Of a stretch of 46,249 bases of DNA, positions 3,685 to 25,730 are shown piece by piece. Below the pieces are notes generated by a model. The model was not told the DNA's origin. It made no database searches and was given only the letters and a program-made list of their open reading frames with translations. The translations under genes and the position numbers were made by a program. The DNA comes from an uncultured bacterium (GTDB lineage: Bacteria > Bacillota > Clostridia > Oscillospirales > Oscillospiraceae). How positions within the stretch are numbered: the stretch's first letter is position 1; every line of letters begins with the position of its first letter. The DNA is taken from NCBI GenBank assembly GCA_949840775.1, contig CATKXO010000022.1, positions 1 to 46,249 on the forward strand. Reading direction: 5' to 3'.

Positions 3685-3700
3685 TGTACCAAAACGTACA
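3684..3700. promoter_or_regulatory. Candidate operator ATGTACCAAAACGTACA upstream of the phage-like cluster
   Basis: This 17-bp word contains two GTAC half-sites flanking CAAAAC. It recurs with two mismatches (ATGTTCCAAAACGTACG, 34891-34907) just downstream of the promoter of the SLH glycosidase gene. It lies 29 bp ahead of the ribosome site of the first cluster gene. No convincing -35/-10 pair could be placed around it. Regulator unknown; operator function is inference. Confidence 0.35.
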
Positions 3701-3741
3701 ACTTTTGCCCCCCGGCCCCTATGGGTGTAAGGAGGGATGAA

Positions 3742-4041
3742 GTGGCAAAGGCTGTGAAGCTCCCGGACAGGGAGCAGATTATCAAACGAATGTGGAAGCT
3801 GGCCAACGCCGGGGCGGGGGACGCCGTTAAGCTGGCCTGCTTCCCGCCTGAGGAGTGGCAGGAGACGGACGGGCTGGACCTGGACGCCCTCACCGAGTTC
3901 AAGCGGGGGAGCAACGGGGTGATCGAGCTGAAATTCGTTGACCGGGGGCGGCTGCTGGAGCGGCTGCTGGACGCGGTGGACCACAGCGGCGAGGACCAGG
4001 TGGACCGCTTCCTCCAGGCCATGGAGGGACAGGGGGGATAG
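3742..4041 (+). CDS. Phage-cluster first gene, possible terminase small subunit
   Basis: A 99-residue protein beginning VAKAVKLPDREQIIKRMWKLANAGAG, mostly helical and charged. By position, directly before the large terminase, it takes the place of a small terminase (xtmA in PBSX). However, it is much shorter than XtmA and I see no clear DNA-binding helix-turn-helix. The GTG at 3742 is chosen because AAGGAGG (3729-3735) lies 6 bp upstream; the ATG at 3721 lies before that site and has none of its own. The stop (4039-4041) nearly touches the next start. A C-terminal acidic helix (LLDAVDHSGEDQVDRFLQAM) could mediate contact with the large subunit. The functional call is positional. Confidence 0.6.
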   Translation: MAKAVKLPDREQIIKRMWKLANAGAGDAVKLACFPPEEWQETDGLDLDALTEFKRGSNGVIELKFVDRGRLLERLLDAVDHSGEDQVDRFLQAMEGQGG

Positions 4042-4042
4042 C

Positions 4043-5293
4043 TTGGTTTTTTCCGAAAAACAGAGGCGTGTGCTCACCTGGTGGCGGCCCGGGTCCCCGG
4101 ACCGGGAGCGGCAGGCCATCATCTGCGACGGGGCGGTGCGCAGCGGCAAGACCCTGTGCACCGGCCTGTCCTTTTTCTGCTGGGCCATGAGCTCCTTTCA
4201 GAACCGGAGCTTTGCCCTGTGCGGGCGGACCATCCAGTCGGTGCGGCGGAACATGCTGTCAGAGTTGCTTCCCCTGCTGAGAAGCATGGGCTTCCGGTGC
4301 GAGGAAACGGTGAGCAAAAACCTGATTCAGGTGCGGCTGGGAGGGCGGCGGAACAACTTTTACCTCTTTGGCGGCAAGGATGAGAGCTCCGCCGCCCTCA
4401 TCCAGGGCATCACCCTGGCGGGGGCGCTGCTGGACGAGGCGGCGCTGATGCCCCGGTCCTTTGTGGAGCAGGCCGCGGCCCGCTGCTCTGTCACCGGCAG
4501 CAGGCTGTGGTTCTCCTGCAATCCGGAGTCCCCCGCCCACTGGTTCTATCAGGAGTGGGTGCGGAAGGCGGAGGAGAAAAACGTCCTGCGGCTCCGGTTC
4601 ACTATGGATGATAACCCGGGGCTGTCTGATGAGGTGCGGGCCCGGTATGCCAACACCTTTCAGGGGGCCTTTTACCGCCGGTTTGTGCTGGGGGAGTGGG
4701 CGGCGGCGGAGGGGCTGGTGTATGACTTCTTTGACGCGGGCTTTGTCCGGGAGGCTCCGGAGGGGCCCTTTGAGGAGTGGTACATTTCCTGCGACTATGG
4801 CACCTCCAACCCCACCTCTATGGGGCTGTGGGGGAAGAAGGATGGGGTATGGTACCGGGTAAAGGAGTACTACTACGACGCCCAGGCCATGCGCCGGCAG
4901 AAGACCGATGAGGAGTACGCCGGCGATTTGGCAAGGCTGGCCGGAGACAGGCCCGTCCGGGCTGTCATTGCCGACCCCTCGGCGGCCAGCTTCTGCGAGA
5001 CCCTGCGCCGCCGGGGGTGGCGGGTGAGGAAGGCGGACAATCAGGTGCTGTCGGGGATCCGTCTCACCGCCCGGCTGCTGAAGAGCGGGAAAATTGTCAT
5101 TTGCAGGGGCTGCGACAACGCCATCCGGGAGTTTTCCCTGTACCGCTGGGACGACAAGTGCCAGGGGCAGGACCAGGTCCGCAAGGAACACGACCACGCT
5201 ATGGACGAGATCCGTTACTTCGCCGCCACCGTGGTTGGAAAAGAGGGCCGGGTTGGCGTGTGCGCCGGGAGCGTGGAGAGAAAAGTGCTTTAA
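4043..5293 (+). CDS. Phage terminase large subunit (PBSX XtmB type)
   Basis: The DNA-packaging motor ATPase and nuclease, 416 residues. Walker A is GAVRSGKT (about residues 30-37) and Walker B is ALLDEAAL (about 127-134). The C-terminal RNase H-like nuclease domain shows the expected acidic positions: CDYG near 251, IADPS near 310 and the HDHAMDEIRY segment near 385-394. Nothing essential appears lost, so packaging could be functional. The start is a TTG at 4043 with AGGGGGG 6 bp upstream, one base after the preceding stop; the longer open frame upstream overlaps the previous gene and is not protein-like. A palindromic repeat follows the stop, the only sizeable non-coding gap in the cluster. 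Conserved ATPase and nuclease motifs separate this cluster from tailocins, which lack packaging genes. Confidence 0.93.
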   Translation: MVFSEKQRRVLTWWRPGSPDRERQAIICDGAVRSGKTLCTGLSFFCWAMSSFQNRSFALCGRTIQSVRRNMLSELLPLLRSMGFRCEETVSKNLIQVRLGGRRNNFYLFGGKDESSAALIQGITLAGALLDEAALMPRSFVEQAAARCSVTGSRLWFSCNPESPAHWFYQEWVRKAEEKNVLRLRFTMDDNPGLSDEVRARYANTFQGAFYRRFVLGEWAAAEGLVYDFFDAGFVREAPEGPFEEWYISCDYGTSNPTSMGLWGKKDGVWYRVKEYYYDAQAMRRQKTDEEYAGDLARLAGDRPVRAVIADPSAASFCETLRRRGWRVRKADNQVLSGIRLTARLLKSGKIVICRGCDNAIREFSLYRWDDKCQGQDQVRKEHDHAMDEIRYFAATVVGKEGRVGVCAGSVERKVL

Positions 5294-5297
5294 GGTG

Positions 5298-5382
5298 TGT
5301 GGGACCCGCCGCCCCCGGCGGGCTAATTCAAAACATCAGACGATGGTTAAGAGATGACCCGCCCAGGGGGGCGGGTCCCACA
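5298..5382. repeat. Palindromic repeat, family D (copy 1), inside the phage-like cluster
   Basis: Terminal inverted repeats TGTGGGACCCGCC...GGCGGGTCCCACA enclose about 35 bp; each end is itself a hairpin (CCCGCCGCCCCCGGCGGG and CCCGCCCAGGGGGGCGGG). The element sits between the terminase and portal genes without breaking either. A second copy at 42475-42537 carries the same two modules in swapped order. It would form strong RNA structure in the cluster transcript and might lower portal-and-downstream expression; that is inference. Confidence 0.85.
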
Positions 5383-5403
5383 TTTGGACAAGGGAGGAAA
5401 TCT

Positions 5404-6552
5404 ATGAAGTGGTGGAAACAAAAGCGGCGGGAGCCCCCCGCGCCCGTTGTTCAGGTGCGGCGGGGCGGAGGCCAGCCCTTCGGGGTGCTGGACCGGTACA
5501 TCCCCCTGCGCACCGGGGAGGCGGCTCTATACCGGGCCATCCGGGAGGGGGTGCCCATTGTGGACGCCGCCATTTGGAAGCTGATCCGGCTGTGCGGCGG
5601 GGTGGGGGTGAGATGCGATGACCGGACCGCCCAGGCCGGGCTGGAGGCGTTTTTCAAAACGGTGGATGTGGGCTGGGGCCAGCGGGGGGTGCAGGCATTT
5701 CTGGACCGCTATCTGGACGACCTGTTTACCTGCGGCCACGGGCTGGGGGAGGTGGTGCTCACCCCGGACGGCGGGGACATCGCCGCCCTGCTGTGCGCCG
5801 ACCCGGAGCAGGTGGAGGTGAAGGCGGGGGACAGCCCCCTGGACTTCCGCCTGTGCCGGGCCGGGATGGGGGAGGACCGGGAGCTGCCCTTTCAGGAGCT
5901 GCTCCTCTTTACCCCCTTCCAGCCCACGGGAGACGCCCCCTGCGGGGTGGCGCTGCTGCGGTCTATGCCCTTTCTGGCAGGTATTCTGCTGAAAATTTTT
6001 CAGGCCACCGGCCAGAACTGGGAGCGGGCGGGTAATCTTCGCTTTGCCGTGGTGTGCAGGCCCGGTGAGGGGGAGGAGGCCTTTGTCCAGGAGCGGTGCG
6101 GCCAGATTGCCCAGGAGTGGTCCGCCGCCATGCAGGCCGGGCGGGAGGGCTCTGTCCGGGACTTTGTGGCGGTAGGCGATGTGGACATCAAGGTTATCGG
6201 GGCGGACAGCCCGATTTTGGACAGCCAGGTTCCGGTGCGGCAGATTTTGGAGCAGCTGGTGGCCCGGACGGGCATCCCGCCCTTTATGCTGGGGCTGTCC
6301 TGGTCCTCCACCGAGCGGATGAGCGCCCAGCAGGCGGACATCCTCACCAGCGAGGTGACCGCCATCCGGAGAGCGGTGGAGCCCGCTCTGTGCCGGGTGG
6401 CTGAGCTGTGGCTGCGGCTTCACGGGTTTGGAGAGCGGGCGGAAATTGTATGGGAGGATATCAACCTCCAGGACATTGTGGAGGAGGCCAGGGCGGAGCT
6501 CTATCGGGCCCAGGCGGAAAAATTGAGGAGGGAGATCAGTGAAAATCATTAA
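5404..6552 (+). CDS. Phage portal protein
   Basis: A 382-residue protein expected to form the dodecameric DNA-entry ring at one capsid vertex. The call rests on its place between terminase and prohead protease and on the characteristic C-terminal stretch TGIPPFMLGLSWSSTERMSAQQADILTSEV, which resembles portal proteins with an SPP1/PBSX-like architecture. The segment GVPIVDAAIWKLIRLCGGVGV near residues 50-70 matches the usual portal start in which terminal helices precede the wing domain. The ATG at 5404 has GGGAGG 8 bp upstream. The frame upstream of it runs through the repeat element and terminase in another frame and is spurious. The end overlaps the protease gene by 14 bp. Its length is short for a portal (often 400-500) but plausible. 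Confidence 0.85.
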   Translation: MKWWKQKRREPPAPVVQVRRGGGQPFGVLDRYIPLRTGEAALYRAIREGVPIVDAAIWKLIRLCGGVGVRCDDRTAQAGLEAFFKTVDVGWGQRGVQAFLDRYLDDLFTCGHGLGEVVLTPDGGDIAALLCADPEQVEVKAGDSPLDFRLCRAGMGEDRELPFQELLLFTPFQPTGDAPCGVALLRSMPFLAGILLKIFQATGQNWERAGNLRFAVVCRPGEGEEAFVQERCGQIAQEWSAAMQAGREGSVRDFVAVGDVDIKVIGADSPILDSQVPVRQILEQLVARTGIPPFMLGLSWSSTERMSAQQADILTSEVTAIRRAVEPALCRVAELWLRLHGFGERAEIVWEDINLQDIVEEARAELYRAQAEKLRREISENH

Positions 6553-7435
6553 GGAAGCGGAGGGCGGCGGCGGGGCCGTCCTGGGGCCGGGAGACCTGGA
6601 GCTGATTGGCGCACTGGCCCGGAGGCCCCTGGGGCCGGAGGAGGTGTATACCTTCTCGGTGCGGCTGTGTGACAACGAGATTGACCGGGATTTTGAGCGT
6701 TTTGCACCCCAGACCCTGGAGGAGCTTGCCCCTATGTTTGTGGGCAAGAGCGGCATTTTTGACCACCAGTGGTCGGCCAGGGGGCAGGCGGCCCGCATCT
6801 ACAAGACCGAGGTGATATGGGAGCCAGGCCGGGTGACCCGGGCCGGGGCCCCCTATTGCTGGCTGAAGGGCTGCGCCTATATGATGCGCACCGGGAGCAG
6901 CCGGGACCTGATTGCCGAGATTGAGGGTGGCATCAAGAAGGAGGTAAGCGTGGGCTGTTCGGTGGCGCGCTCGGTTTGTTCGATTTGCGGCGCGGACCGG
7001 ACCGTGTGCGACTGCGGCCACGAGAAGGGACAGGAGTACGGCGGGCAGCTGTGCTACGCTACCCTGGAGGGGGCCGGCGACGCCTATGAGTTTTCCTTTG
7101 TGGCGGTGCCGGCTCAGCCTATGGCAGGAGTGGTGAAGTCTGCCCGCCGGGACGGGGGGCAGGACCTGGAGCGGCTGGAGGAGGAGGCCGCCTTGGGCAG
7201 AAAGTATCTGGAAAGCCTCCGGAGCGAGGTGGTGCGGCTGGCCCTGCTGGCCGACCGGGAGTTGTCCGGAAAGACGGTGAAGTCGCTGGTGGACAAGCTG
7301 TCCCCCGGTGAACTGGAGGAACTGCGCGGGTCCTACGCCCGCAGGGCCGGGAAGCGGTTCCCCCTGCGCACCCAACTGAGCTACCAGGCGGAGAACGCCG
7401 CCTCCCGCGAGGAAAACAGGGCCTTTTTGGCATAA
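6539..7435 (+). CDS. Prohead maturation protease with cysteine-rich insert and scaffold-like tail
   Basis: A 298-residue protein. The N-terminal 200 residues fit the HK97-type prohead serine protease pattern: FDHQW with H76, then EVSVG with S137 (family pattern His...lSiG), then the signature EFSFVAVPAQPMAGV at 184-198 (family E.S.V..PA.P.A). Between Ser and that signature lies an unusual Cys-rich segment with CSIC (147-150), CDCGH (157-161) and C172, which could bind a metal. Residues 205-298 are charged and helical (LERLEEEAALGRKYLESLRSEVVRLALLADREL), as expected of a fused scaffolding domain removed during maturation. The GTG at 6539 follows GAGGAGGGA. It sits directly before the capsid gene, the normal position. 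The protease call is firm on motifs; the metal role of the insert is inference. Confidence 0.85.
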   Translation: MKIIKEAEGGGGAVLGPGDLELIGALARRPLGPEEVYTFSVRLCDNEIDRDFERFAPQTLEELAPMFVGKSGIFDHQWSARGQAARIYKTEVIWEPGRVTRAGAPYCWLKGCAYMMRTGSSRDLIAEIEGGIKKEVSVGCSVARSVCSICGADRTVCDCGHEKGQEYGGQLCYATLEGAGDAYEFSFVAVPAQPMAGVVKSARRDGGQDLERLEEEAALGRKYLESLRSEVVRLALLADRELSGKTVKSLVDKLSPGELEELRGSYARRAGKRFPLRTQLSYQAENAASREENRAFLA

Positions 7436-7454
7436 ATTTTAGGAGGTATGTGAC

Positions 7455-8468
7455 ATGGCATATTACTACGACAATCTGAAGCTGGACAAGGGGATGTACC
7501 GTGAGGCCGGGCAGTCCTTCAGTCAGGTGCTGGAGCGGATGGACCCCAGCGAGCGGTATAAGGGCACCAGTCTGGAGGGGCTGGACGCCTTTCAGCGGCA
7601 GCTGAAGCGGTTCGATATCAAGGTGAAGGGGGAGGCCAGTGACCCGGTGGAGGCATTCTTCCGCACCTCGGACGCCGCTGTCCTCTTCCCTGAGTATATT
7701 TCCCGCACTGTGCGCCAGGGCATGGAGGAGGGGGATGTCCTCCCCCACATCACCGCCGCCGTCACCAAGATTGACGGCATGGATTACCGCTCCATCACCT
7801 CGGAGGCCGGGGGCGAGGAGAAAAAGCTCACGCCGGTGGCCGAGGGGGCGGCGATTCCCTCCACCACCATCAAGGTACAGGCCAACCTGGTGAAGCTGAA
7901 AAAGCGGGGGCGGATGCTGGTGGCCAGCTATGAGGCGGTGCGCTTTCAGAAGCTGGACCTGTTTTCCGTTACCCTGCGGCAGATCGGCGCACACATTGCC
8001 CGCACCCACCTGGAGGACGCGGTGGACGTGCTCATCAGCGGCGACGGCAATGAGAACCCCGCCGCCGTGACCACCATCGACGCCGGCAAGGCGCTGGACT
8101 ACGATACCTTGGTGGACTTCTGGGCCAAATTCGACCCCTACACCATGAATACACTGCTGGTGTCCGGCGATGTGATGCTCCAGCTGCTGAAGATGCCTGA
8201 GTTTCAGAATCCCTTCACCGGCCTGAACTTCCAGGGTACCGGCAAGCTGACCACTCCCCTGGGGGCCACCCTGCTCCGCACTTCTGTGCTGCCCGCCAAA
8301 ACCGCCGTGGGCCTGGACAAGCGGTTTGCCCTGGAGATGGTCCAGAGCGGCGGCGTGATGGTGGAGTATGACAAGCTCATCGACCGTCAGCTGGAGCGGG
8401 CCGCCATCACCACCATCAGCGGCTTTGCCAAGGTGTTCACCCAGGCCAGCCGGGTGCTGAAGGTGTGA
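7455..8468 (+). CDS. Major capsid protein (HK97-fold expected)
   Basis: A 337-residue protein immediately after the protease and preceded by AGGAGGT, the best ribosome site in the cluster, as expected for the most abundant virion protein. Features typical of PBSX XkdG/HK97-fold coat proteins are visible: an N-terminal helical arm (about 1-60), FFRTSDAAVLFPEYISRTVRQGM near 70-95 (N-terminal edge and E-loop region), and a C-terminal A-domain stretch TPLGATLLRTSVLPAKTAVGLDKRFALEMVQSGG followed by EYDKLIDRQLERAAITTISGFAKV. No decoration or Ig-like domain is present. Start and frame are unambiguous. The HK97 fold is inferred from family resemblance and position, not modelled. Confidence 0.9.
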   Translation: MAYYYDNLKLDKGMYREAGQSFSQVLERMDPSERYKGTSLEGLDAFQRQLKRFDIKVKGEASDPVEAFFRTSDAAVLFPEYISRTVRQGMEEGDVLPHITAAVTKIDGMDYRSITSEAGGEEKKLTPVAEGAAIPSTTIKVQANLVKLKKRGRMLVASYEAVRFQKLDLFSVTLRQIGAHIARTHLEDAVDVLISGDGNENPAAVTTIDAGKALDYDTLVDFWAKFDPYTMNTLLVSGDVMLQLLKMPEFQNPFTGLNFQGTGKLTTPLGATLLRTSVLPAKTAVGLDKRFALEMVQSGGVMVEYDKLIDRQLERAAITTISGFAKVFTQASRVLKV

Positions 8469-8469
8469 G

Positions 8470-8838
8470 ATGACGGAGGAGATTCTGGCCCTTTGCAGGG
8501 CGATGGGGGCCGGTGAGGACCAGGAGGAGCTGCTGCTCCCTCTGGTCCTGGCCGTCAGGGAGCAGCTGTCAGGCCGGCTGAGAGAAGGCGTTCTGCCGGA
8601 GGACTGCGGACCGGCCTTTCCTCTGGCAGCCGCTATGACCGCCATGGACCGGCTGTCCGCAGCGGCGGGAGGGGGAAACACCGGAGCGGTGACCTCCTTT
8701 ACCGCCGGGGACCTGACCATCCGGAAGGAGGCCGGGAGCGGAGGACGGAGCGGAAAGAGCCTGTCCGCCCAGGCCGGGGAGCTGCTGGCCCCCTGGCTGG
8801 AAGACCAAAGCTTTGCCTTTCAGGGGGTGCCGGGATGA
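8470..8838 (+). CDS. Head-tail connector (gp6/YqbG-like)
   Basis: A 122-residue, mostly helical protein with a central low-complexity segment AAAGGGNTGAVTSFTAGDLTIRKE, a pattern seen in YqbG/gp6-like connector proteins of PBSX-type phages that bind under the portal. The ATG is one base after the capsid stop, so translation is coupled. The stop overlaps the next start (ATGATG/TGA). It lacks the Cys-rich and SLH features seen elsewhere, and nothing looks truncated. The call combines position and weak sequence character. Confidence 0.65.
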   Translation: MTEEILALCRAMGAGEDQEELLLPLVLAVREQLSGRLREGVLPEDCGPAFPLAAAMTAMDRLSAAAGGGNTGAVTSFTAGDLTIRKEAGSGGRSGKSLSAQAGELLAPWLEDQSFAFQGVPG

Positions 8839-9158
8839 TGGACAGGATATGGGACGAGATTTTGAACCGCTTTGGCCAGGAGGTAATCCTCCGGGGCCGG
8901 GGTGAGGACTGTACCGTACAGGCCCTGGTCCAGCCCTGCCTGGACCGGAGCGGGGAGCAGGAGGTCCCCGGCCCCCTGGGGCGGGGGCGGCAGGACCGCT
9001 TTCGCTACATGGGCCCGGCCGGCCATCCCCTGGACCTGGACACCCTGGTGGAGTGGCAGGGCCGGGCGTACCGGGTGCAGTCCGCTCATCTGGTGGGGGA
9101 GGGGGTATGCCCCTACTGGTGGGCCATGCTCTGTCCCAAAGAGGAGGCGGCAGTATGA
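8835..9158 (+). CDS. Head closure / minor connector protein (XkdH-like)
   Basis: A 107-residue beta-rich protein (YMGPAGHPLDLDTLVEWQGRAYRVQSAHLVGEGVCPYWWAMLCPKEEA) in the position of XkdH/head closure proteins. The C-terminal half reads like the small beta-barrel of head-tail stoppers, in which a measured quantity column (position, value, 'WAMLCPKE') ends the chain. It overlaps the previous gene by 4 bp and the next by 4 bp (ATGA), which indicates coupled translation. Function is assigned by synteny only. Confidence 0.6.
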   Translation: MMDRIWDEILNRFGQEVILRGRGEDCTVQALVQPCLDRSGEQEVPGPLGRGRQDRFRYMGPAGHPLDLDTLVEWQGRAYRVQSAHLVGEGVCPYWWAMLCPKEEAAV

Positions 9159-9658
9159 GCGCGGGGCTGGAGAAGGTCCGCCGGGCGGTGGCGGATTACC
9201 TCAATGGCCGGGGGGTTCCCGCTGTCACCGCCTGGCCCGGCCGCGCCAGGCAGGAACGGGAGGAGCCGGTGGTGGCGGTGTCTGTCCGGGGCTGCAAAGC
9301 CGGGCCCGCCGGCTTCCAGAATTACCTGGGGGAGCGGTATGACGGGGAGACCGGCCGGTGGGAGGAGCGGTATGGCCGCAGGGCGGAGCTCACCCTTGGG
9401 CTGGACATCTATGCCCCGGAAAAAGGGGATGGGGAGGCGGTGCAGGCGGCCTTTGACGCCCTGGCCGGGGCTCTCCTTCTGGGCAGCCTCCCGGGGCTGG
9501 ACTTGCAGGAGTTTTCCTGCGGGCAGACCGTTTGGGACTCGGAGAACCGGCGGCTGAAGCGGCCGGTGGAGGCGGTTTGCACCGCCTGGCTGTGCGCGGT
9601 CACAGATGGGGGCGGCGCGTTCAGTGATTTTGAATTGCGAGGTGTGGTAAAAGAATGA
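9155..9658 (+). CDS. Tail completion / tail terminator-like protein
   Basis: A 167-residue protein (MSAGLEKVRRAVADYLNGRGVPAVTAWP...) in the slot between head closure and sheath, where PBSX-type phages encode XkdI/XkdJ-like neck and tail-terminator proteins. The N-terminal helix followed by alternating strands (EPVVAVSVRGCK, RAELTLGLDIYAP) and the late helix fit the tail terminator fold. The ATG at 9155 overlaps the upstream TGA and has AGAGGAGG 6 bp before it; the longer upstream frame is a shadow. The end overlaps the sheath start by 4 bp. Only one gene is seen here where PBSX has two. The call is positional. Confidence 0.55.
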   Translation: MSAGLEKVRRAVADYLNGRGVPAVTAWPGRARQEREEPVVAVSVRGCKAGPAGFQNYLGERYDGETGRWEERYGRRAELTLGLDIYAPEKGDGEAVQAAFDALAGALLLGSLPGLDLQEFSCGQTVWDSENRRLKRPVEAVCTAWLCAVTDGGGAFSDFELRGVVKE

Positions 9659-10713
9659 GTAACAGCGTACATCAGCGTCCGGGGGTTTACTCTTCCTACG
9701 ACGCATCTGCGGTGGTCAGCGGCCGGGAGCCCGGCCGCGTTGTGGGGATTGCGGCGGTCAACACGCAGGCCGGGGCCGGTGTGGTCCACATGATTACCAG
9801 CTATGACAGGGCGGTGGCCGTTTTTGGCTCCAGCGGGGCGGAGGATATGGCGGAGCTGATCCGCCTTGCCCTGAAAAATGGGGCGTCCGCTGTGGCGGCG
9901 GTCCCCGTGGCCGATGAGAGCGGCTATGAGGAGGCCTTCAATCTGCTGGCCGGGGTGGAGAACATCGCACTGGTCCTGTGCGGCAGTACAGATATTGGGG
10001 TGCAGAAAAAGCTGCGGGACAGCGTGGCGGAGGCGTCTGACATGCGCCGGGAACGCCTTTGCGTGCTGGCCGGCGGGAAAGACGAGAGTGTGGACGGCCT
10101 GATTGCCAGGGCCGGGGAACTGAACTATGAGCGGGCCATCCTGATTGCTCCCGGCTGCATAGACGGCGGGGGAACTGCTGTTTCGGGCCTGCCGCTGGCC
10201 GCCGCTGTGGCGGGAGTGATTGCCGGGGAGAGCGACCCCGCCCTCCCCCTGGGCGGCGCGGAGCTGCTGGGCTTGAGCGGCCTGGACCAGCGGCTGGGGG
10301 ACCGGGATGTGGACCGGCTCATCCTGGGCGGCGTTACTCCGGTGGAGAGCCTGGGCGGCGTGATCAGCGTAATCCGGGGGGTGACCACCCGGACCACTAC
10401 AGGCGGGACGGCGGATGCGACATGGCGGGATTTGTCCGCCATCCGGGTGGCGGATGACGTGATTCCCGGCCTGCGGGACGCCCTGCGGGCCAAATTCCGC
10501 CGGGCCAAGAATACCCCCCAGAGCCGGGGGGCCATCCGAGCCCAGGTGGTGCTGGAGCTGGAGAACAAGCTGGCCCGGGAGATCATCACCGGGTATGAGG
10601 ACGTGACCGTCACTGCCGACCCGGAGGACCCCACCCGCTGTCTGGTGGAGTTTTCCTTTACCGTGGCCCACGGGCTGAACCAGATCTGGCTGACGGCCCA
10701 CATCACTGTTTAA
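9655..10713 (+). CDS. Contractile tail sheath protein (XkdK-like)
   Basis: A 352-residue sheath subunit. It opens with the classic N-terminal extension (SVHQRPGVYSSYDASAVVSGREPGRVVGIAA), has the Rossmann-like middle (CVLAGGKDESVDGLIARAGELNYERAILIAP) and ends with the conserved C-terminal domain: RGVTTRTTTGG..ATWRDLSAIRVADDV, LRAKFRRAKNT, then LEDVTVTADPEDPTRCLVEFSFTVAHGLNQIWLTAHITV-type strands used for mesh formation between subunits. XkdK of PBSX is longer (about 466 residues), so the external domain is reduced. It identifies the cluster as myovirus-type. The tube gene follows after 12 bp. Confidence 0.93.
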   Translation: MSNSVHQRPGVYSSYDASAVVSGREPGRVVGIAAVNTQAGAGVVHMITSYDRAVAVFGSSGAEDMAELIRLALKNGASAVAAVPVADESGYEEAFNLLAGVENIALVLCGSTDIGVQKKLRDSVAEASDMRRERLCVLAGGKDESVDGLIARAGELNYERAILIAPGCIDGGGTAVSGLPLAAAVAGVIAGESDPALPLGGAELLGLSGLDQRLGDRDVDRLILGGVTPVESLGGVISVIRGVTTRTTTGGTADATWRDLSAIRVADDVIPGLRDALRAKFRRAKNTPQSRGAIRAQVVLELENKLAREIITGYEDVTVTADPEDPTRCLVEFSFTVAHGLNQIWLTAHITV

Positions 10714-10725
10714 GGAGGCTGACAA

Positions 10726-11115
10726 ATGAGTATTGCAGGATTTCCCACCAGCAGCGACATCTATTTGGAGGCGGACGGCGTGCGCGTGGCGGTGGTGCAG
10801 AGTTACACCGCCAAGACCACCAAGGGCAGTACAGCGGTGGAGGCCTTCGGAGAGGCGGAGCCGGTGGCCACCGTACCTGGGCAGGCCGCCCACGAGATCG
10901 AACTGACCCGGCTGTACGCCACCGACGAGGCCATCCGGGACAATATTGATTTCTACTCTATGTCGGGTTTTTCTCTGGTGATCTGTAAGCCGGACAGAAA
11001 AATCATCTATTCCGACTGCCAGTGGAGTTCCATTCAGGAGAGCGCCAACATCGGAAGTATGGTGCTGGAGAAGGTCACGCTGGTGGCCTCCCGGCGCATC
11101 GAGACGGGGGCGTGA
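10726..11115 (+). CDS. Tail tube protein (XkdM-like)
   Basis: A 129-residue protein that directly follows the sheath, the invariant position of the inner tube subunit. Its pattern of strands (DIYLEADGVRVAVVQSYTAKTTK, HEIELTRLYA, FSLVICKPDRKIIYSDCQWSSIQE, SMVLEKVTLVASRRIE) fits the XkdM/gp19-type tube beta-barrel with one helix (TDEAIRDNIDFYSM). AAGGAGG lies 9 bp before the ATG. Length is close to the normal 140-150 residues. Nothing abnormal is seen. Confidence 0.85.
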   Translation: MSIAGFPTSSDIYLEADGVRVAVVQSYTAKTTKGSTAVEAFGEAEPVATVPGQAAHEIELTRLYATDEAIRDNIDFYSMSGFSLVICKPDRKIIYSDCQWSSIQESANIGSMVLEKVTLVASRRIETGA

Positions 11116-11118
11116 GCC

Positions 11119-11760
11119 GTGGGGCTGTCTATATTGGCCAGGCGGGACCGGATTTCGCTGGAAAACGGCTTTGATTTGCGGCTGCTGCCGGCCCTGGAGG
11201 TGATCCAGGCCAGGCGGGAGGCGGAGGAGCTGGCTCGGGACGGGCGGGAGCGGGCTTTGTGCTCCAACGCCTGCCTGCTGGCCAGGGCATTGGAAAAAAC
11301 CGGGGACCAGACAGCGGTTTTTGCGGATGGGCGGGAGGTACTGGCCGGCCTGACGGCGGCGGAGATCGCCGCCCTGGCCGCGCGCTGGGCCGCCTTTAGC
11401 CGGGAAAACGATCCGGGGCTGGAGCTGTCTCAGGAGGAGCTGGAGCAGGTGAAGGCGGAGCTGAGCAGCGATCCCGGGGAGCGGCTGCGCTGGCGGGTGC
11501 TGCGGCAGTTTGGCGCGCTGCCCTCCGAGGGCCGGGCGCGGACCATGAAGGGACGGGACTATCTGTGGTGCCTGGCCAACATCCTTTTGGACCGGGAGGA
11601 GGAGCTGGGGCGGCTGTGCCCCAGCTGCCGGTCACAGGCGATGGAGGCGCGGTGCCCGGTCTGCGGCCGCCCTGGGGCGGAGTGGGAAGAGGGGACGGGC
11701 AACGCCTCCTTTGACTTGGCGCGCTTTGCGGAACTGAGCGGGAGGGAACGGCTTGACTGA
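11119..11760 (+). CDS. Tail assembly chaperone-like protein with C-terminal zinc ribbon
   Basis: A 213-residue helical protein at the position of XkdN, the tail assembly chaperone. The N-terminal region (LLPALEVIQARREAEELARDGRERALCSNACLLARALE) and middle (LSQEELEQVKAELSSD) are helical. Near residues 168-182 it has CPSC and CPVC pairs, a likely zinc ribbon that ordinary tail chaperones lack. The start is a GTG at 11119, three bases after the tube stop. It overlaps the following gene by 8 bp. No slippery heptamer was found at the junction, so the two-frame chaperone scheme of many phages does not seem to be used here. Chaperone role is positional. Confidence 0.5.
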   Translation: MGLSILARRDRISLENGFDLRLLPALEVIQARREAEELARDGRERALCSNACLLARALEKTGDQTAVFADGREVLAGLTAAEIAALAARWAAFSRENDPGLELSQEELEQVKAELSSDPGERLRWRVLRQFGALPSEGRARTMKGRDYLWCLANILLDREEELGRLCPSCRSQAMEARCPVCGRPGAEWEEGTGNASFDLARFAELSGRERLD

Positions 11761-12472
11761 CTACTTGGAGGAGCATTTGGAATATGCCGGCGCCCTTTTG
11801 GAGCAGCTGCGGCAAATGGAACGGAGTACCGCAGGCCCGTTCAGGGACGGTGACCCGGCGGCGGAAGAGGGGGAGGCGTTTGACCGCTCCGATGAGGAAA
11901 CCTACGCCAATGAGGGGGAAAAAGCGGACGTATCCGATTCGGAAAAGGAGGTTGACGCCTTGAAAAGGGAGGTCAACCAAATGAAAGAACTGGCTGCCAA
12001 TGCAAACCTTGCCCCTGAAACCGGCGGCAGGAGTGCCAGGGATGACGTAGACCTGGAACGAGAAGAGGTATACGGTCTGCGGACCGCGCAACCGCATATG
12101 AATGCCGCAGAGGAGAGGCGGGAGTCTGCCAGGTCTGAGGCACCGCCGACGAATGAGGAGAAAGCGGGAAAAAACAGCGTGCCCCTAGCGGTGCAGCTGG
12201 AGGAGCTGGACCATGCGGTGTCTGCGCTGGCCGCGATTGTTCCGGTGGAGCAGGCCGCAGACCGGATTCCGTGGATTACCGGAGGGAGACGGGGGACTCC
12301 TTCCCTTTCCTTCTCCAGTGCGGCGTTCCGCTCTGGCGAGGCCGGGGGGCCGGGGAGCGGAGTGGAAAGAGCCTCCTTTTCTGCTGGGGACGGGCTGCGC
12401 TGGGCGGAGCAGGCGGACCGGGTCTTCCGCCGGGACAGCCGCCGCTATGACGGCGGTTTCTATCTGTACTGA
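11753..12472 (+). CDS. Unrecognised 239-residue charged protein in the tape-measure position
   Basis: I do not recognise this protein. In PBSX-type operons a tape-measure protein of 700-1400 residues lies between the chaperone and the LysM protein; here only this product is present. It begins with a helical segment (LEEHLEYAGALLEQLRQMERS), continues with a long acidic, Glu/Lys-rich, probably disordered or coiled-coil region (residues 35-130), has one hydrophobic helix (VSALAAIVPVEQAADRIP) and ends in RVFRRDSRRYDGGFYLY. There are no transmembrane segments and no peptidase or lysozyme motif. TTG at 11753 has GGAGGG 6 bp upstream. If it measured tail length at about 0.15 nm per residue, the tail would be about 36 nm. 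It may instead be a replacement with another role. Confidence 0.7.
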   Translation: MTDYLEEHLEYAGALLEQLRQMERSTAGPFRDGDPAAEEGEAFDRSDEETYANEGEKADVSDSEKEVDALKREVNQMKELAANANLAPETGGRSARDDVDLEREEVYGLRTAQPHMNAAEERRESARSEAPPTNEEKAGKNSVPLAVQLEELDHAVSALAAIVPVEQAADRIPWITGGRRGTPSLSFSSAAFRSGEAGGPGSGVERASFSAGDGLRWAEQADRVFRRDSRRYDGGFYLY

Positions 12473-12486
12473 GGAGGAGTGAGGGA

Positions 12487-13062
12487 ATGGAACTGACATC
12501 CATGCGCTACAAGGGCTACACCTGGCCCCACAACCCCCGGGTGTATTCCATAGACTTTCAGCGCCCTGTGGCGGTGCACAAAACGCCCTTTGGCCGCTAT
12601 CAGCTCCAGGACCTGGGGATGGGCCACCGGGTTATGGAGGGGGAGGGAGAATTTGTGGGGCCGGGGGCCTATGTGGAATTTCAGCGGCTGGCCAGCGTCT
12701 TCTATGAGGACGGGCCCGGCCTGCTGGTTCATCCGCTGTGGCAGGTGGCAAACGCCTATTTTGTGGCCCTGCGGGTGGAGCAGGCCCCCCGTCCGAATTA
12801 TGTGCGCTACTCCTTTGCGTTTTGGGAGGACTACGGGCTGTACAATGGCCTGGCAGTCAGGACCGGAGGGGGCGTTACGGCAGGGATGGGCGGCACGTCT
12901 CAGGCCGGCAGCCAGGGAGCCTGTCACCGGGTGGTGCAGGGCGATACCCTGTGGGCGCTGGCCGGCCGGTATGGGGTGACGCTGGCAGAGCTGATTGCCC
13001 TCAATCCGCAGATCAAGAATCCCAACCTGATTCAGGTGGGTGAGGAGGTGCGGGTGCGGTGA
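12487..13062 (+). CDS. LysM-domain tail protein (XkdP-like)
   Basis: A 191-residue protein with an N-terminal domain of the XkdP/gp53-like baseplate type (YTWPHNPRVYSIDF...LGMGHRVMEGEGEFVGPGAYVEFQRLASVFYEDGPG) and a C-terminal LysM module at about 140-190 (HRVVQGDTLWALAGRYG..LAELIALNPQIKNPNLIQVGEEVRV). In PBSX and related myophages this protein links tube end to hub; its LysM binds peptidoglycan or the hub. GAGGAG lies upstream of the ATG. It overlaps the gpD-like gene by 4 bp. Intact in length and motifs. Confidence 0.88.
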   Translation: MELTSMRYKGYTWPHNPRVYSIDFQRPVAVHKTPFGRYQLQDLGMGHRVMEGEGEFVGPGAYVEFQRLASVFYEDGPGLLVHPLWQVANAYFVALRVEQAPRPNYVRYSFAFWEDYGLYNGLAVRTGGGVTAGMGGTSQAGSQGACHRVVQGDTLWALAGRYGVTLAELIALNPQIKNPNLIQVGEEVRVR

Positions 13063-14009
13063 CGGCCTATGTGACGGACGCAAAAGGGGTGCGGTGGACC
13101 CTCCCGCGGCCGGTGGCCTGGCGGCTGGAATATACCTCCGGGGTGCCCTGTGACAGCTTTTGGCTGCGGTGCGTCTGGGACGGGAACAACACGGCCAGGC
13201 CGGAGGACTGGGTGAGTTTTTCCGCAGAGTACCAGGGGGAGCGGGTGTTCACCGGCGTTGTGGACGAGTGCGAGGTGAGCGTTACCGCCCGGGGCAGGCT
13301 GCTGGAGGTGTCCGGCCGGGGAATGGCTGCGCTGTTGTTGGACAACGAGGCGCTGGGGCAGGACTATCAGATTGCCACCCAGAAGGATATTGTCCGGGAC
13401 CATGTGCGTCCCTATGGAATCTCGGTGGCATCGGGTGCGGCGCTCCGGGCGGTGCCCCAGTTCTCGGTGGCCACCGGGAGCAGCGAGTGGTCGGTGATCT
13501 ATGAGTTTGCCCGGTACTACGGGGGAGTCGCGCCCCGGTTTGACCGGGAGGGGCGGCTGGTGCTCACCGGTTGGGAGGACAAGGGGGAGCTGGTGGTGGA
13601 CGGCAATGCCCCCCTGATTTCACTGGTCCGCCGGGACAGGAGGTATGGGGTGCTGTCTCAGGTGCTGGTGCGGGACCGGTGGAGCGGCGCGGTGGAGACG
13701 CTGGACAACGGGGAATTTTCTGCCGCTGGAGGACGGGCCCGGCGCATCATCACCATGCCCGCCAAGAGCAGCTATAAGGATATGCGGTACAGCGGACAGT
13801 TTCAGCTGGACAAGTCCGCCTCGGAGTGGAAGCGGATGGAATTGACGCTGGGCCGGCCCTTCTGCGCCTGGCCGGGGGAGCTGGTGACCGTCAGCCGGGG
13901 GGAGCCGGGCTGGGATGGCCGGTACCGGGTGGCGGAGGTTGTGGTAGAGATGGACGAGGCGGGGAGCAGGAGCCGTATGGAGCTGGCTCCCCCCGACTTT
14001 ACGGTTTGA
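13059..14009 (+). CDS. Baseplate hub protein, late control gpD-like (XkdQ)
   Basis: A 316-residue hub subunit corresponding to XkdQ of PBSX and gpD of P2. Recognisable elements are the N-terminal barrel (VRWTLPRPVAWRLEYTSGVPCDSFWLRC), the segment FTGVVDECEVSVTARGRLLEVSGRGMAALLLDNEA and the later barrel ending KRMELTLGRPFCAWPGELVTVSRGEPGWDGRYRVAEVVVEMDEAGSRSRMEL. The GTG start at 13059 overlaps the LysM gene stop. It should form a trimer that carries the gpV spike encoded next. Length is close to XkdQ (325). Confidence 0.85.
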   Translation: MTAYVTDAKGVRWTLPRPVAWRLEYTSGVPCDSFWLRCVWDGNNTARPEDWVSFSAEYQGERVFTGVVDECEVSVTARGRLLEVSGRGMAALLLDNEALGQDYQIATQKDIVRDHVRPYGISVASGAALRAVPQFSVATGSSEWSVIYEFARYYGGVAPRFDREGRLVLTGWEDKGELVVDGNAPLISLVRRDRRYGVLSQVLVRDRWSGAVETLDNGEFSAAGGRARRIITMPAKSSYKDMRYSGQFQLDKSASEWKRMELTLGRPFCAWPGELVTVSRGEPGWDGRYRVAEVVVEMDEAGSRSRMELAPPDFTV

Positions 14010-14019
14010 GGTGACAAAT

Positions 14020-14481
14020 ATGTGGACATCGGAAAAAAACCGAAACCTCCCGGTGCGGGAGGCGGCGGCAGAGGTGGGGACCGTCACCCTGGGGGGTGAT
14101 CCCGCCGGGGTGAGCCTGGGCGGAGAGCGGCGCTGGCTCAATGTATACGGCCCCGGAGGCTATAGCTGGCGGCCTACCTCCGGGGACAAGGTGATGGTGC
14201 TCAAGGCGGGGGCGGAGGGGGAGTCCCCCTGCATCCTGGGCACCACCCAGGACGCGGAGGACCTGAAGCCGGGGGAGGTCAGGCTGACGGGTCTGGACTG
14301 CACCCTCCGTCTGGGCCAGGGACAGGTGGAGATGACCAGCGGGGAGAGCTCCCTGTGCCTGAACGGCCAGGGGATGGAGATGACCGGCGGGCTGTCTGTC
14401 AATGGTCAGGCACTGGAGGACATGGTGCGGAGCATTGCCCGGGAAGTGGCCCAAGAGATTGTCGGTCAGATGATGCAGTGA
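14020..14481 (+). CDS. Baseplate spike protein gpV-like
   Basis: A 153-residue protein with an OB-fold-like start (VGTVTLGGDPAGVSLGGERRWLNVYGPGGYSWRPTSGDKVMVLKAG...SPCILGTTQD) followed by a short beta-repeat region (LTGLDCTLRLGQGQVEMTSGESSLCLNGQGMEMTGGLSVNG) that resembles the beta-helical needle of central spikes, and a C-terminal helix. No HxH iron-binding tip motif is seen. ATG at 14020 is chosen because GAGGTG lies 6 bp upstream; GTG at 14011 lies inside that ribosome site. It fits between hub and gp25-like protein. Confidence 0.78.
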   Translation: MWTSEKNRNLPVREAAAEVGTVTLGGDPAGVSLGGERRWLNVYGPGGYSWRPTSGDKVMVLKAGAEGESPCILGTTQDAEDLKPGEVRLTGLDCTLRLGQGQVEMTSGESSLCLNGQGMEMTGGLSVNGQALEDMVRSIAREVAQEIVGQMMQ

Positions 14482-14494
14482 GGGAGGAGAGGCC

Positions 14495-14887
14495 ATGGAG
14501 CGGATGCTTGCGGATGGGGACTATGTCCCGGACGGGACGGGAGGGCTGACCGCCCTGACAGGGAGCGGGGAGGTGCTGGCCCGGGTGCTGTACCGGCTCA
14601 CTGTCCGGCGGGGGGCGCTGCCCTTTTTGCCTGAGCTGGGCAGCCGGCTGTATCAGCTGGGCCGGGAAAAGCCCTCGGCCCGGAGGGCGCTGGCCGTCCA
14701 GTATGTGACGGAGGCCCTGCGGGAGGAGCCTGATCTGGCGGTGCAGTCGGTGGAGCTGGCCCAGAGGGAGGAGGATGTGCTGCTGACGGTGTATCTGGAC
14801 TGGAAGGGCGAAAAATTGACCGTCCGTCTGCCCCTTGAGAAGGCGGCCGGACAGCCTGGAGGAGAGAATGCCTATGAGAAGCGTTGA
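14495..14887 (+). CDS. Baseplate wedge protein gp25/gpW-like (XkdS)
   Basis: A 130-residue baseplate protein with the gp25-like pattern ALTGSGEVLARVLYRLTVRRGALPFLPELGSRLYQLG, in which the motif PFLPELGS.L resembles the conserved segment that nucleates sheath assembly in gp25-family proteins. The strand-rich C-terminus (AVQSVELAQREEDVLLTVYLDWKGEKLTVRLPLE) completes the fold. AGGAGAGG precedes the ATG. It overlaps the gpJ-like gene by 14 bp. Retention of this sheath-initiating protein argues that contractile assembly is still under selection. Confidence 0.82.
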   Translation: MERMLADGDYVPDGTGGLTALTGSGEVLARVLYRLTVRRGALPFLPELGSRLYQLGREKPSARRALAVQYVTEALREEPDLAVQSVELAQREEDVLLTVYLDWKGEKLTVRLPLEKAAGQPGGENAYEKR

Positions 14888-15929
14888 GGAAATTTATCAG
14901 GAGATGCTGGACTGCTTTGGGGAGCGGACGGGGCTGGAGCCCCGGGAGGGATGCGACCTGTCTGCCCGGCTGTATGCCCTGGCGGCGCAGGTCTGCGCGC
15001 TGTACATACAGGCGGACTGGGTGGTGCGGCAGGCCTTTCCCCAGACGGCGGAGGGGGAGTATCTGGACCGCCACGCCCAGCTGCGGGGGCTGGAGCGGAA
15101 GCCGGCGGTGGCCGCGGAGGGACGGGTCCGGTTTACCGCCGGAGAGGCCTCTGACGCCCCGCGGGAGATTCCCCAGGGGACAGTGTGCATGACGGCGGGA
15201 CTGGTCCGGTTCGAGACAGTTGAAACCGCAGTGCTGGAGGCGGGGGCGCTCAGTGTGGATGCGCCTGTCCGGGCGCTGGAGCCGGGCAGGCTGGGAAATG
15301 TGTCGGCCCGGGCCATCGTGTCTATGGCGGTGGCCCCCTTTGGGATATCCGTCTGCTCCAATCCGGAGCCCTGCGCCGGCGGGGCGGACCGGGAGGCGGA
15401 CGGAGAACTGCGCGCCCGGGTACTGGAGACCTTCAAGCGGCTGCCCAACGGCGCCAACAGCGCCTTTTACCAGCAGGGGGCGCTGTCCTTCGACCAGGTG
15501 GCCGCTGCTGCGGTGATTCCCCGGCCCAGAGGGGTGGGTTCGGTGGACGTGGTGCCCGCCACCTTGGCCGGCCTGCCCAGTGAAGAACTGCTGGAGGAGC
15601 TGAAGGTGTATTTTGACCGGCGGCGGGAGATTGCCGTGGACCTTCAGGTCCGGGCGCCGGAGACGGTGACGGTAGATGTCGCCGTGGAGGTAGAGACCGG
15701 GGAGGGCCGGGACAAGACAGAGGTGCTGGACCGGGTGAAGGAGGCCGTCCGGAGCTGGTTTACCGGTAAGCTGCTGGGCCAGAGGGTCCTCCGGGCCAGG
15801 CTGGGGGAGATCGTCTACCACTGTGAAGGGGTGGTAAACTATTCCGTCCTCACGCCGGCGGCCGACGTGGAGGTGCAGGAGGACCAGCTCCCCCTGCTGG
15901 GAACGCTGAGCGTGGAGGAAACGGCATGA
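14874..15929 (+). CDS. Baseplate J-like wedge protein (XkdT)
   Basis: A 351-residue protein, nearly identical in length to XkdT of PBSX (348). The N-terminus (MRSVEEIYQEMLDCFGERTGLEPREGCDLSARLYALAAQVCALYIQADWVVRQAFPQTAEGEYLDRHAQLRGL) contains the baseplate J signature of gpJ-family wedges, followed by RFTAGEASDAPREIPQGTVC and the conserved DREADGELRARVLETFKRLPNGANSAFYQQGAL. ATG at 14874 has GGAGGAG 9 bp upstream; the ATG at 14868 is only 3 bp away from it. It overlaps the next start by 4 bp. Confidence 0.92.
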   Translation: MRSVEEIYQEMLDCFGERTGLEPREGCDLSARLYALAAQVCALYIQADWVVRQAFPQTAEGEYLDRHAQLRGLERKPAVAAEGRVRFTAGEASDAPREIPQGTVCMTAGLVRFETVETAVLEAGALSVDAPVRALEPGRLGNVSARAIVSMAVAPFGISVCSNPEPCAGGADREADGELRARVLETFKRLPNGANSAFYQQGALSFDQVAAAAVIPRPRGVGSVDVVPATLAGLPSEELLEELKVYFDRRREIAVDLQVRAPETVTVDVAVEVETGEGRDKTEVLDRVKEAVRSWFTGKLLGQRVLRARLGEIVYHCEGVVNYSVLTPAADVEVQEDQLPLLGTLSVEETA

Positions 15930-16495
15930 AGCACGCCCAATGTCTGCGGGACCTGCTGCGTCCCCTGGGGGTTTACGATTTAGAAGCCCCCTTTAACGGC
16001 GGCGAGCTGGACGCTCAGGGGGAGGCGCTGGACAAGGTCATGGCCTGGGTCGAGGAAGTCCAGCGGGAGGCATCCCTCGCGTCGGCGGAGAGTTGGGGGG
16101 TGGAGCGGATGGCGGAGCTCTTTGCCCGCCGCCCGGTGGCCGCTCAGCCCCGGAAGCTGGCCGCTGCCCTGGCCGCCCTGCTGCGCATCGGCGGGGACAG
16201 CTTTACCCTGGCGGCCATCAACGACACCATCTCCGGCTGCGGTGTTCCCGCCGTGGTGAAGGAGCGGGGAAAGGGACAGGTATCCGTCTCCTTTCCCGGT
16301 GTGGCCGGTGAGCCGGACAGCTTTGCTGAGCTGAAAAAGCTCATAGAGGATATTCTGCCCACCCATTTGGGCATCGAATATGACCTCTGGTATCTGACCT
16401 GGATGGAGCTGGAGGCCAACTTCCCCAGCTGGCAGTCTATTGAGAGCCTGGATCTGTCCTGGGTGGGGCTGGAGACCTTTGTGGAGTTTTTATAA
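15926..16495 (+). CDS. Tail protein gpI-like (XkdU, DUF2313)
   Basis: A 189-residue protein typical of the DUF2313/XkdU family that joins the wedge to tail fibres: LRDLLRPLGVYDLE at the start, KVMAWVEEVQREASLASAESWGVERMAELF, then RKLAAALAALLRIGGDSFTLAAINDTISGCGVPAVV and a terminal ELKKLIEDILPTHLGIEYDLWYLTWMELE. In PBSX the fibre genes xkdV onward follow; here none do. The stop codon lies 9 bp from the convergent spmB stop, so the cluster ends abruptly without fibres, lysis genes or a visible terminator. Confidence 0.87.
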   Translation: MKHAQCLRDLLRPLGVYDLEAPFNGGELDAQGEALDKVMAWVEEVQREASLASAESWGVERMAELFARRPVAAQPRKLAAALAALLRIGGDSFTLAAINDTISGCGVPAVVKERGKGQVSVSFPGVAGEPDSFAELKKLIEDILPTHLGIEYDLWYLTWMELEANFPSWQSIESLDLSWVGLETFVEFL

Positions 16496-25713: not shown

Positions 25714-25730
25714 AAAGGAGCGTGAACAAA

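Follow-up and report, generated by a model that had tools for sequence, protein, structure and literature searches.

The window analyzed here, contig C22 (CATKXO010000022.1; 46,249 nucleotides), belongs to a 2.6-Mb genome assembly in 64 contigs (GCA_949840775.1) from an uncultured bacterium of the family Oscillospiraceae. It contains a cluster of phage-derived head, packaging, and tail genes that resembles the contractile PBSX element of Bacillus subtilis. Eighteen genes, all open and on the plus strand, lie between positions 3721 and 16495 (Table 1), and their Pfam and PHROGs family matches follow the familiar order of the PBSX structural genes, as a preliminary description of this DNA had stated. 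Position 3742, given there as the cluster start, is an alternative GTG of the first gene, terS; the ATG lies at 3721. Pfam matches above the curated cutoff were obtained for the large terminase, capsid, sheath, LysM, baseplate hub, and Baseplate_J proteins. The portal, tail, and baseplate wedge proteins were named from PHROGs, and several small genes were named by position only. The G+C content of the cluster is 65.6%, versus 62.9% for the rest of the window.

Table 1. Features of the PBSX-like cluster and its leader
Feature	Position	Strand	Basis or remark
Leader motif TGTACCAAAACGTACAACTTTT	3685..3706	+	Kept upstream of terS in congeners; common to seven dispersed fiber-like genes
Small terminase TerS without N-terminal DNA-binding half	3721..4041	+	Weak Pfam Terminase_2, E 0.0067, below cutoff
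Large terminase TerL, TTG start	4043..5293	+	Terminase_6N E 1.3e-15; Terminase_3
Portal protein	5404..6552	+	phrog_30703 portal E 3e-155
Head protein, protease/scaffold position	6539..7435	+	phrog_16951 (function unknown); role by position
Major capsid protein	7455..8468	+	Phage_capsid_4 E 6e-20
Head-tail connector 1	8470..8838	+	By position; kept in congeners
Head-tail connector 2	8835..9158	+	By position; kept in congeners
Head-tail connector 3	9155..9658	+	phrog_25177 (function unknown); role by position
Contractile tail sheath	9655..10713	+	Phage_sheath_1C E 6.5e-14
Tail tube, XkdM-like	10726..11115	+	phrog_27038 (unknown function), phrog_985 (virion structural); role by position
Tail assembly chaperone position, XkdN-like, one frame	11119..11760	+	Role by position
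239-aa gene in tape-measure slot	11753..12472	+	No family match (Pfam, PHROGs)
LysM tail protein, XkdP-like	12487..13062	+	LysM E 5e-14; DNA_circ_N
Baseplate hub, XkdQ-like	13059..14009	+	Gp44-like_2nd
Baseplate protein, XkdR/spike position	14011..14481	+	phrog_25991 (function unknown); role by position
gp25-like baseplate wedge, XkdS-like	14495..14887	+	phrog_43 baseplate wedge; GPW_gp25 below cutoff
Baseplate J, XkdT-like	14874..15929	+	Baseplate_J E 9.5e-50; closest solved chain TRI-2 (CD1371) of 8v3w
XkdU-like tail protein, last gene	15926..16495	+	phrog_521 tail protein

Profile searches of the 18 genes detected no integrase, replication, lysis, or fiber gene in the cluster itself. Integrase, lysis, and fiber genes were likewise not seen downstream when the open reading frames (ORFs) of the window and of 11 loci from other genomes of the genus (congeners) were inspected by eye rather than by family search. 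By this inspection of the flanks, the head, packaging, and tail genes stand without replication or integration genes, and the fiber and lysis genes that follow XkdU in PBSX are lacking at the locus. The capsid and terminase genes, which are absent from tailocins, are both present and constrained.

The capsid gene occurs as a single copy in this genome and in each of 35 of 36 congeners, and the same protein search found it in 2 of 23 other genomes of the order. Across the family, it was detected in 55 of 150 genomes (39 of the 97 of good quality) and in 44 of 106 genera, always as one copy except for one fragmented genome with two partial pieces. Across the order, it was detected in 43 of 295 genomes, one of which has three extra weak matches at 23 to 24% identity. 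The named carriers among 67 loci include Flintibacter muris, isolates of Pseudoflavonifractor and Colidextribacter, metagenome-assembled genomes (MAGs) of Lawsonibacter and Oscillibacter, and many Ruminococcus MAGs. In F. muris DSM 110149 (locus L046), the capsid DNA is identical to that of genome G022, in which six fiber genes were counted. Gene order was identical at the 20 congener loci that were fetched, and 18 of these had all 17 queried genes (the tape-measure slot was left out of the query); one of the other two is cut by a contig end, and one has no detectable TerS. The relatives carry the cluster at the same site, with dacA upstream in 19 of the 20 loci, while the downstream neighbors vary as judged by eye. 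At 20 loci of other genera, the order is mostly kept, dacA was not found beside the cluster, and the sheath was not detectable at two loci (L152 and L154). Beyond a split xkdN gene, a frame check of the 20 congener loci flagged only the terS start in two, both accounted for on closer reading, and a partial xkdR in two.

The ratio of nonsynonymous to synonymous substitutions (dN/dS; NG86 method, ten locus pairs) was below 1 in all 158 usable cells, with a range of 0.03 to 0.72. One further cell, terS of L121 and L123, was not counted owing to a wrong start, and the xkdN cells use the split frame. The large terminase and the capsid were among the genes with the lowest values (capsid, 0.04 to 0.23). 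A tree of eight core proteins agreed with that of the host PcrA helicase (Mantel correlation of 0.953 for 30 genomes and 0.856 within the genus for 18 genomes), with 14 of 27 splits in common, compared to a mean of 0.2 after label shuffling. The conserved site, single copy, purifying selection, and codivergence with the host, all read from sequence comparisons, strongly support the domestication of the cluster that the preliminary description had proposed. Vertical descent with the host under purifying selection is also a feature of gene transfer agents (GTAs).

The TerS protein provides a second likeness to GTAs. Its Terminase_2 match spans only positions 63 to 129 of the 141-position profile, and as the open frame starts only 12 codons ahead of the ATG, no N-terminal DNA-binding half is encoded. 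The profile match begins at positions 1 to 6 in four longer TerS proteins of sister lineages; of six further short ones, half have no match at all, and in the other three the match starts at position 50 or beyond. A TerS without a DNA-binding domain is described as a hallmark of GTAs (PMC11841831), and judging from the open frame and the profile coverage, the present TerS appears to share it.

The PBSX tape measure sits between XkdN and XkdP. Here, the gene in this slot encodes 239 amino acids (140 to 229 in seven other loci), with conserved ends and a variable middle. Should it be the tape measure, the rule of 1.5 Å per residue would predict a tail of about 20 to 36 nm. Of 20 congener loci, 16 have a tail chaperone gene in two frames, with a run of 6 to 9 A's where the frame changes; the same holds for 7 of 13 other loci. 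Such an arrangement would fit programmed frameshifting. The gene forms one frame in the window and at two other loci (L115 and L118), an apparent repeated loss of the programmed frameshift. The Ruminococcus-type loci (L062, L081, L070, L154, and others) have a reduced form that keeps the hub, Baseplate_J, XkdU, and an adjacent fiber gene; sheath, XkdN, and tape-measure genes were not detectable there (ORFs were listed for three of these loci). Such reduction may be one way in which contractile particles become podovirus-like. The sheath had no match in a PDB sequence search.

The leader motif upstream of terS links the cluster to genes elsewhere in the genome. A pattern derived solely from terS leaders matched 123 sites in 41 congener genomes, versus 17 for a reversed control, and its second site in the genome under study precedes a gene of about 160 codons with a phage-fiber-like N terminus. 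A pattern built from eight sites of this genome finds exactly eight at up to 2 mismatches, namely, terS and seven dispersed genes, with 0 for the reversed control; since the pattern was fitted to these sites, the information lies in the absence of others. In congeners, the motif (up to 3 mismatches, within 450 bp) was found at 47 of 68 fiber genes, compared to 14 of 500 random windows.

A profile of the fiber N terminus detected 1 to 13 copies in 38 of 41 congeners and seven in the genome under study, each of about 160 amino acids. The same profile matches 28 sister-cluster loci, among which L110 and L112 repeat L065 and L081. In 21 loci the matching gene adjoins xkdU on its downstream side; in the other 7, where xkdU was not detected, it lies one gene length after bpJ. 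The best of these matches has an E value of 1.3e-9, and among 20,895 ORFs no hit apart from these fell below 0.05. We read the dispersed genes as homologs of the fiber genes that probably left the cluster and multiplied. The earlier statement that fiber genes are missing therefore holds for the locus only; seven fiber-like genes lie elsewhere in the genome. Likewise, the claim that all infection genes are missing is wrong genome-wide, because fiber-like genes are dispersed and carry the cluster's leader motif. In the family, 36 genomes had both fiber and capsid genes, 19 capsid only, 5 fiber only, and 90 neither (Fisher P = 1.4e-15, ignoring kinship); the genome handles listed for the capsid and fiber samples agree. 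The fibers have conserved N termini and hypervariable C termini (median normalized similarity of 0.58 versus 0.07 for 78 fibers). The totals of 69, 22, 78, 68, and 88 given in this study differ because thresholds varied between analyses and fibers whose ends were identical entered each count a single time. Two dispersed genes that were tested had no Pfam match, PHROG matches were only weak, and the fiber queries found no relative in the viral contigs scanned. A structure model of one sister-cluster fiber, A2 (mean pLDDT of 82), predicts helices in the N-terminal part and a C-terminal part rich in beta structure; A2 had no match in a PDB sequence search.

All seven fiber-like genes of this genome are convergent with a gene of a surface layer (S-layer) family, and the partners are paralogs of one S-layer homology (SLH) family, assigned through a Pfam match in a congener protein. 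In congeners, a convergent ORF of more than 300 amino acids lies shortly after 62 of 69 distinct fiber genes; an SLH domain was detected in 46 of these ORFs, and many of the remaining fiber genes are cut by the locus edge. In nine other genera, a convergent ORF was found at 17 of 22 fiber genes, the other five lying near the locus edge. With a wider protein query, a convergent S-layer-family ORF was found at 72 of 88 fiber genes, 84 of which have at least 1.5 kb of room. The C termini of the S-layer partners have a median normalized similarity of 0.04. Within genomes, the fiber C terminus and its partner did not covary significantly over the last 250 residues (522 of 2,000 permutations reached the observed value), and two further stretches gave marginal results (72 and 67 of 2,000). 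Of two earlier versions of the test in which frames were chosen more crudely, one yielded zero overall correlation and the other few similar pairs. In Clostridioides difficile, the S-layer protein SlpA serves phages as a general receptor (PMC10100898), so a receptor role of the S-layer is plausible here as well. We tentatively raise the possibility, which we hold to be rather less than even, that each S-layer protein is paired tail to tail with its fitting fiber, so that particles would be addressed to cells with the same coat. If so, DNA exchange would follow the S-layer type and shift as cassettes are gained or switched. The window also encodes a CsaB-type pyruvyl transferase (40257 to 42467) and an SLH-domain protein (25722 to 28142); CsaB-type proteins anchor S-layers. 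In one genome (G012; L274 to L275, 557 to 595 kb), six fiber genes in the same orientation lie about 4 to 10 kb apart between 563 and 589 kb, 25 to 50 kb from the capsid gene at 536 kb, and five of the six have a convergent S-layer ORF.

We additionally searched for phages related to the cluster. Terminase_3 and Baseplate_J each had one match in the genome, and for the terminase and tail types that these families cover, a full phage elsewhere to which the cluster might belong is not supported. A phage-database search with the capsid returned six records. The best named match has 22% identity, and the other five, at 52 to 66%, are unannotated fecal contigs. Although named Bacteriophage sp., the longest uncultured record (MT835508.1) is bacterial chromosome: it carries an operon of ribosomal protein genes, and of the cluster only the head half is present. 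In IMG/VR, 16 contigs have the capsid gene, and 15 of them (57 to 89% identity) look like excerpts of such loci because neighboring cluster genes are present. The other, L114, is a 54.7-kb contig with a capsid at 41% identity; no further gene of the cluster was found on it, and it may be a genuine phage that is distantly related. No closely related active phage was found among the phage-database and IMG/VR records, with one of the five uncultured records inspected. Thus, none of the findings that the preliminary description had named as speaking against domestication was encountered: neither Terminase_3 nor Baseplate_J has a second copy, the cluster is not strain specific, and no named phage is close.

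Searches of open-access literature, exclusive of preprints, listed no paper on the cluster or on fiber/S-layer cassettes, as judged by titles and abstract beginnings. In the human gut, GTA-like packaging is reported to be common among members of the Ruminococcaceae and Oscillospiraceae; the Oscillospiraceae case is Onthomonas, with 3 of 25 events, and the sole operon assigned is that of the Faecalibacterium agent FpGTA (PMC12946183). For the Oscillospiraceae packaging cases without an assigned operon, the cluster in the window is a candidate. Compared by description rather than by sequence, FpGTA is similar in having a Gram-positive gut host of a related family, a TerS without an obvious DNA-binding domain, and a head operon apart from a second operon with baseplate, fiber, and lysis genes (PMC12946183). 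However, FpGTA is reported to be most likely podovirus-like without a visible tail, whereas sheath, tube, and baseplate genes lie in the main cluster here, and the sections of that report consulted here mention no S-layer-linked fibers (PMC12946183). PBSX shares with the present cluster the order of sheath, tube, XkdN, tape-measure slot, and XkdP to XkdU, as well as the retention of head genes. PBSX is reported to package random 13-kb pieces of host DNA (PMC7667829). In contrast to PBSX, there are no lysis or fiber genes after XkdU here, the tape-measure slot encodes 239 amino acids, and the fiber-like genes are dispersed. RcGTA and other alphaproteobacterial GTAs resemble the present cluster in vertical inheritance, in having head and tail genes together but no genes for replication, and in auxiliary genes placed elsewhere in the genome. 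Their TerS likewise has no DNA-binding domain (PMC11841831). The RcGTA tail is not contractile, and its receptor is reportedly capsular polysaccharide. The present cluster differs in its host lineage and in the suggested link to the S-layer rather than to capsular polysaccharide. In our best reading, the contractile tail and the dispersed, motif-bearing fiber-like genes tied to S-layer genes would be new relative to known GTAs. The closest solved relative of Baseplate J is TRI-2 (CD1371) of 8v3w, which we take to be part of a diffocin, an R-type bacteriocin of C. difficile. The S-layer is the likely diffocin target, and diffocins are without heads and terminase; the cluster here keeps both sets of genes.

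Taken together, we consider it likely that these genes specify a GTA-type particle that packages DNA and has a contractile tail, domesticated and passed on vertically, with a dispersed, S-layer-linked fiber repertoire. The conservation, descent with the host, TerS loss, common motif, fiber homology, and cassette structure are present in the sequences themselves; particle formation, random packaging, S-layer docking, and transfer are inferred. A common regulator would switch on particle production, and the terminase, selecting no phage site, would load DNA of the host. At XkdU, the baseplate would receive one fiber out of several alternatives, and cell lysis would release the particle. It would then dock on cells via surface proteins, probably S-layer proteins, and the very short contractile tail would deliver the DNA. 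Several observations weigh against this scheme. The motif was not found within 450 bp of 21 of the 68 congener fiber genes at up to 3 mismatches, and the genus motif was upstream of 0 of 22 fiber genes in other genera at that threshold. No fiber was detectable in 19 of the 55 capsid-positive genomes of the family, and no capsid gene in five fiber-positive ones. No lysis gene was found in this genome in a search with one holin family (phrog_199), and one congener has a holin in an operon bearing the motif. The capsid frame is broken in a Ruminococcus-type MAG (L062), whose capsid was omitted from the analysis once a stop had been reported in it. PBSX also packages random host DNA yet reportedly acts like a bacteriocin and not in transfer (PMC7667829). 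Finally, for this lineage the particle, its packaged DNA, and transfer are predictions from the genes.

The same bacteriocin-like behavior of PBSX (PMC7667829) would fit a domesticated contact weapon, in which PBSX-like particles package DNA incidentally and kill neighbors with other S-layers, the multiple fibers widening the range of targets. The retained contractile sheath, the similarity of Baseplate J to a chain that is presumably a diffocin part, and the role of an S-layer protein as a C. difficile phage receptor (PMC10100898) are consistent with this explanation. However, the head and packaging genes, superfluous for a pure weapon, are kept with low dN/dS for the large terminase and capsid, TerS is altered as in GTAs, the fiber genes travel with the producer's own S-layer genes, so that the aim would be self, and no immunity gene was recognized, though none was searched for. 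We therefore regard a weapon as unlikely, but as the strongest competitor to a GTA-type particle. The preliminary description had left the choice between the two open, and the sequence does not decide it, but the lost DNA-binding half of TerS favors a gene transfer agent.

It is less probable still that the dispersed genes are S-layer accessory proteins that reuse a fiber-type N terminus, the particle's own fiber lying elsewhere or not existing. They do adjoin S-layer genes, two that were tested had no Pfam match, two were not found in the viral contigs scanned, and PHROG matches are weak. However, they share their motif with terS, with no other site in the genome at up to 2 mismatches, have homologs directly behind xkdU in sister clusters, and tend to occur together with the capsid gene. 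A slowly decaying PBSX-like prophage without present function would explain why the locus has no integrase, replication, fiber, or lysis gene, but we regard it as very improbable and rejected it on the basis of copy number, conserved site, dN/dS, and host codivergence. All 17 queried genes were detected in 18 of 20 congener loci with few frame flags, and the frameshift site and the motif are conserved as well. The preliminary description's argument against simple decay, made from the intact frames, is thus extended by dN/dS values below 1 and by conservation across congeners.

The cluster is a concrete candidate for gut packaging particles and is present in cultured isolates. If the fiber/S-layer cassettes work as proposed, they would provide a genetic handle on the recipient choice of a Gram-positive gut GTA, and gene flow would be tied to S-layer type. 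The motif delimits a small candidate regulon that is open to direct testing. Twenty motif sites were fetched: three precede terS, one a fiber gene, three BppU-like genes, three DUF6291-like genes (one assigned by Pfam, two by eye), and three replication-initiator-like genes (by eye); seven have no clear target. The DUF6291-like genes are in three congeners (L186, L189, and L195), and the replication-initiator-like genes are three copies in one congener genome (L190 to L192). Outside the genome under study, the motif may serve more genes or may yield chance matches. A fiber gene was present in 19 of 20 regions picked for the multicopy motif type. The BppU-like operon was not found in the genome under study; among 41 congeners, 11 have it, 4 of these with the motif, and lysis genes were seen in one. 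One motif-bearing operon (L188; contig C131 of genome G035) encodes a BppU-like protein, a large repeat-bearing fiber-like protein, and an amidase-like protein, all named by eye, together with a holin (phrog_199), a content that resembles operon II of FpGTA.

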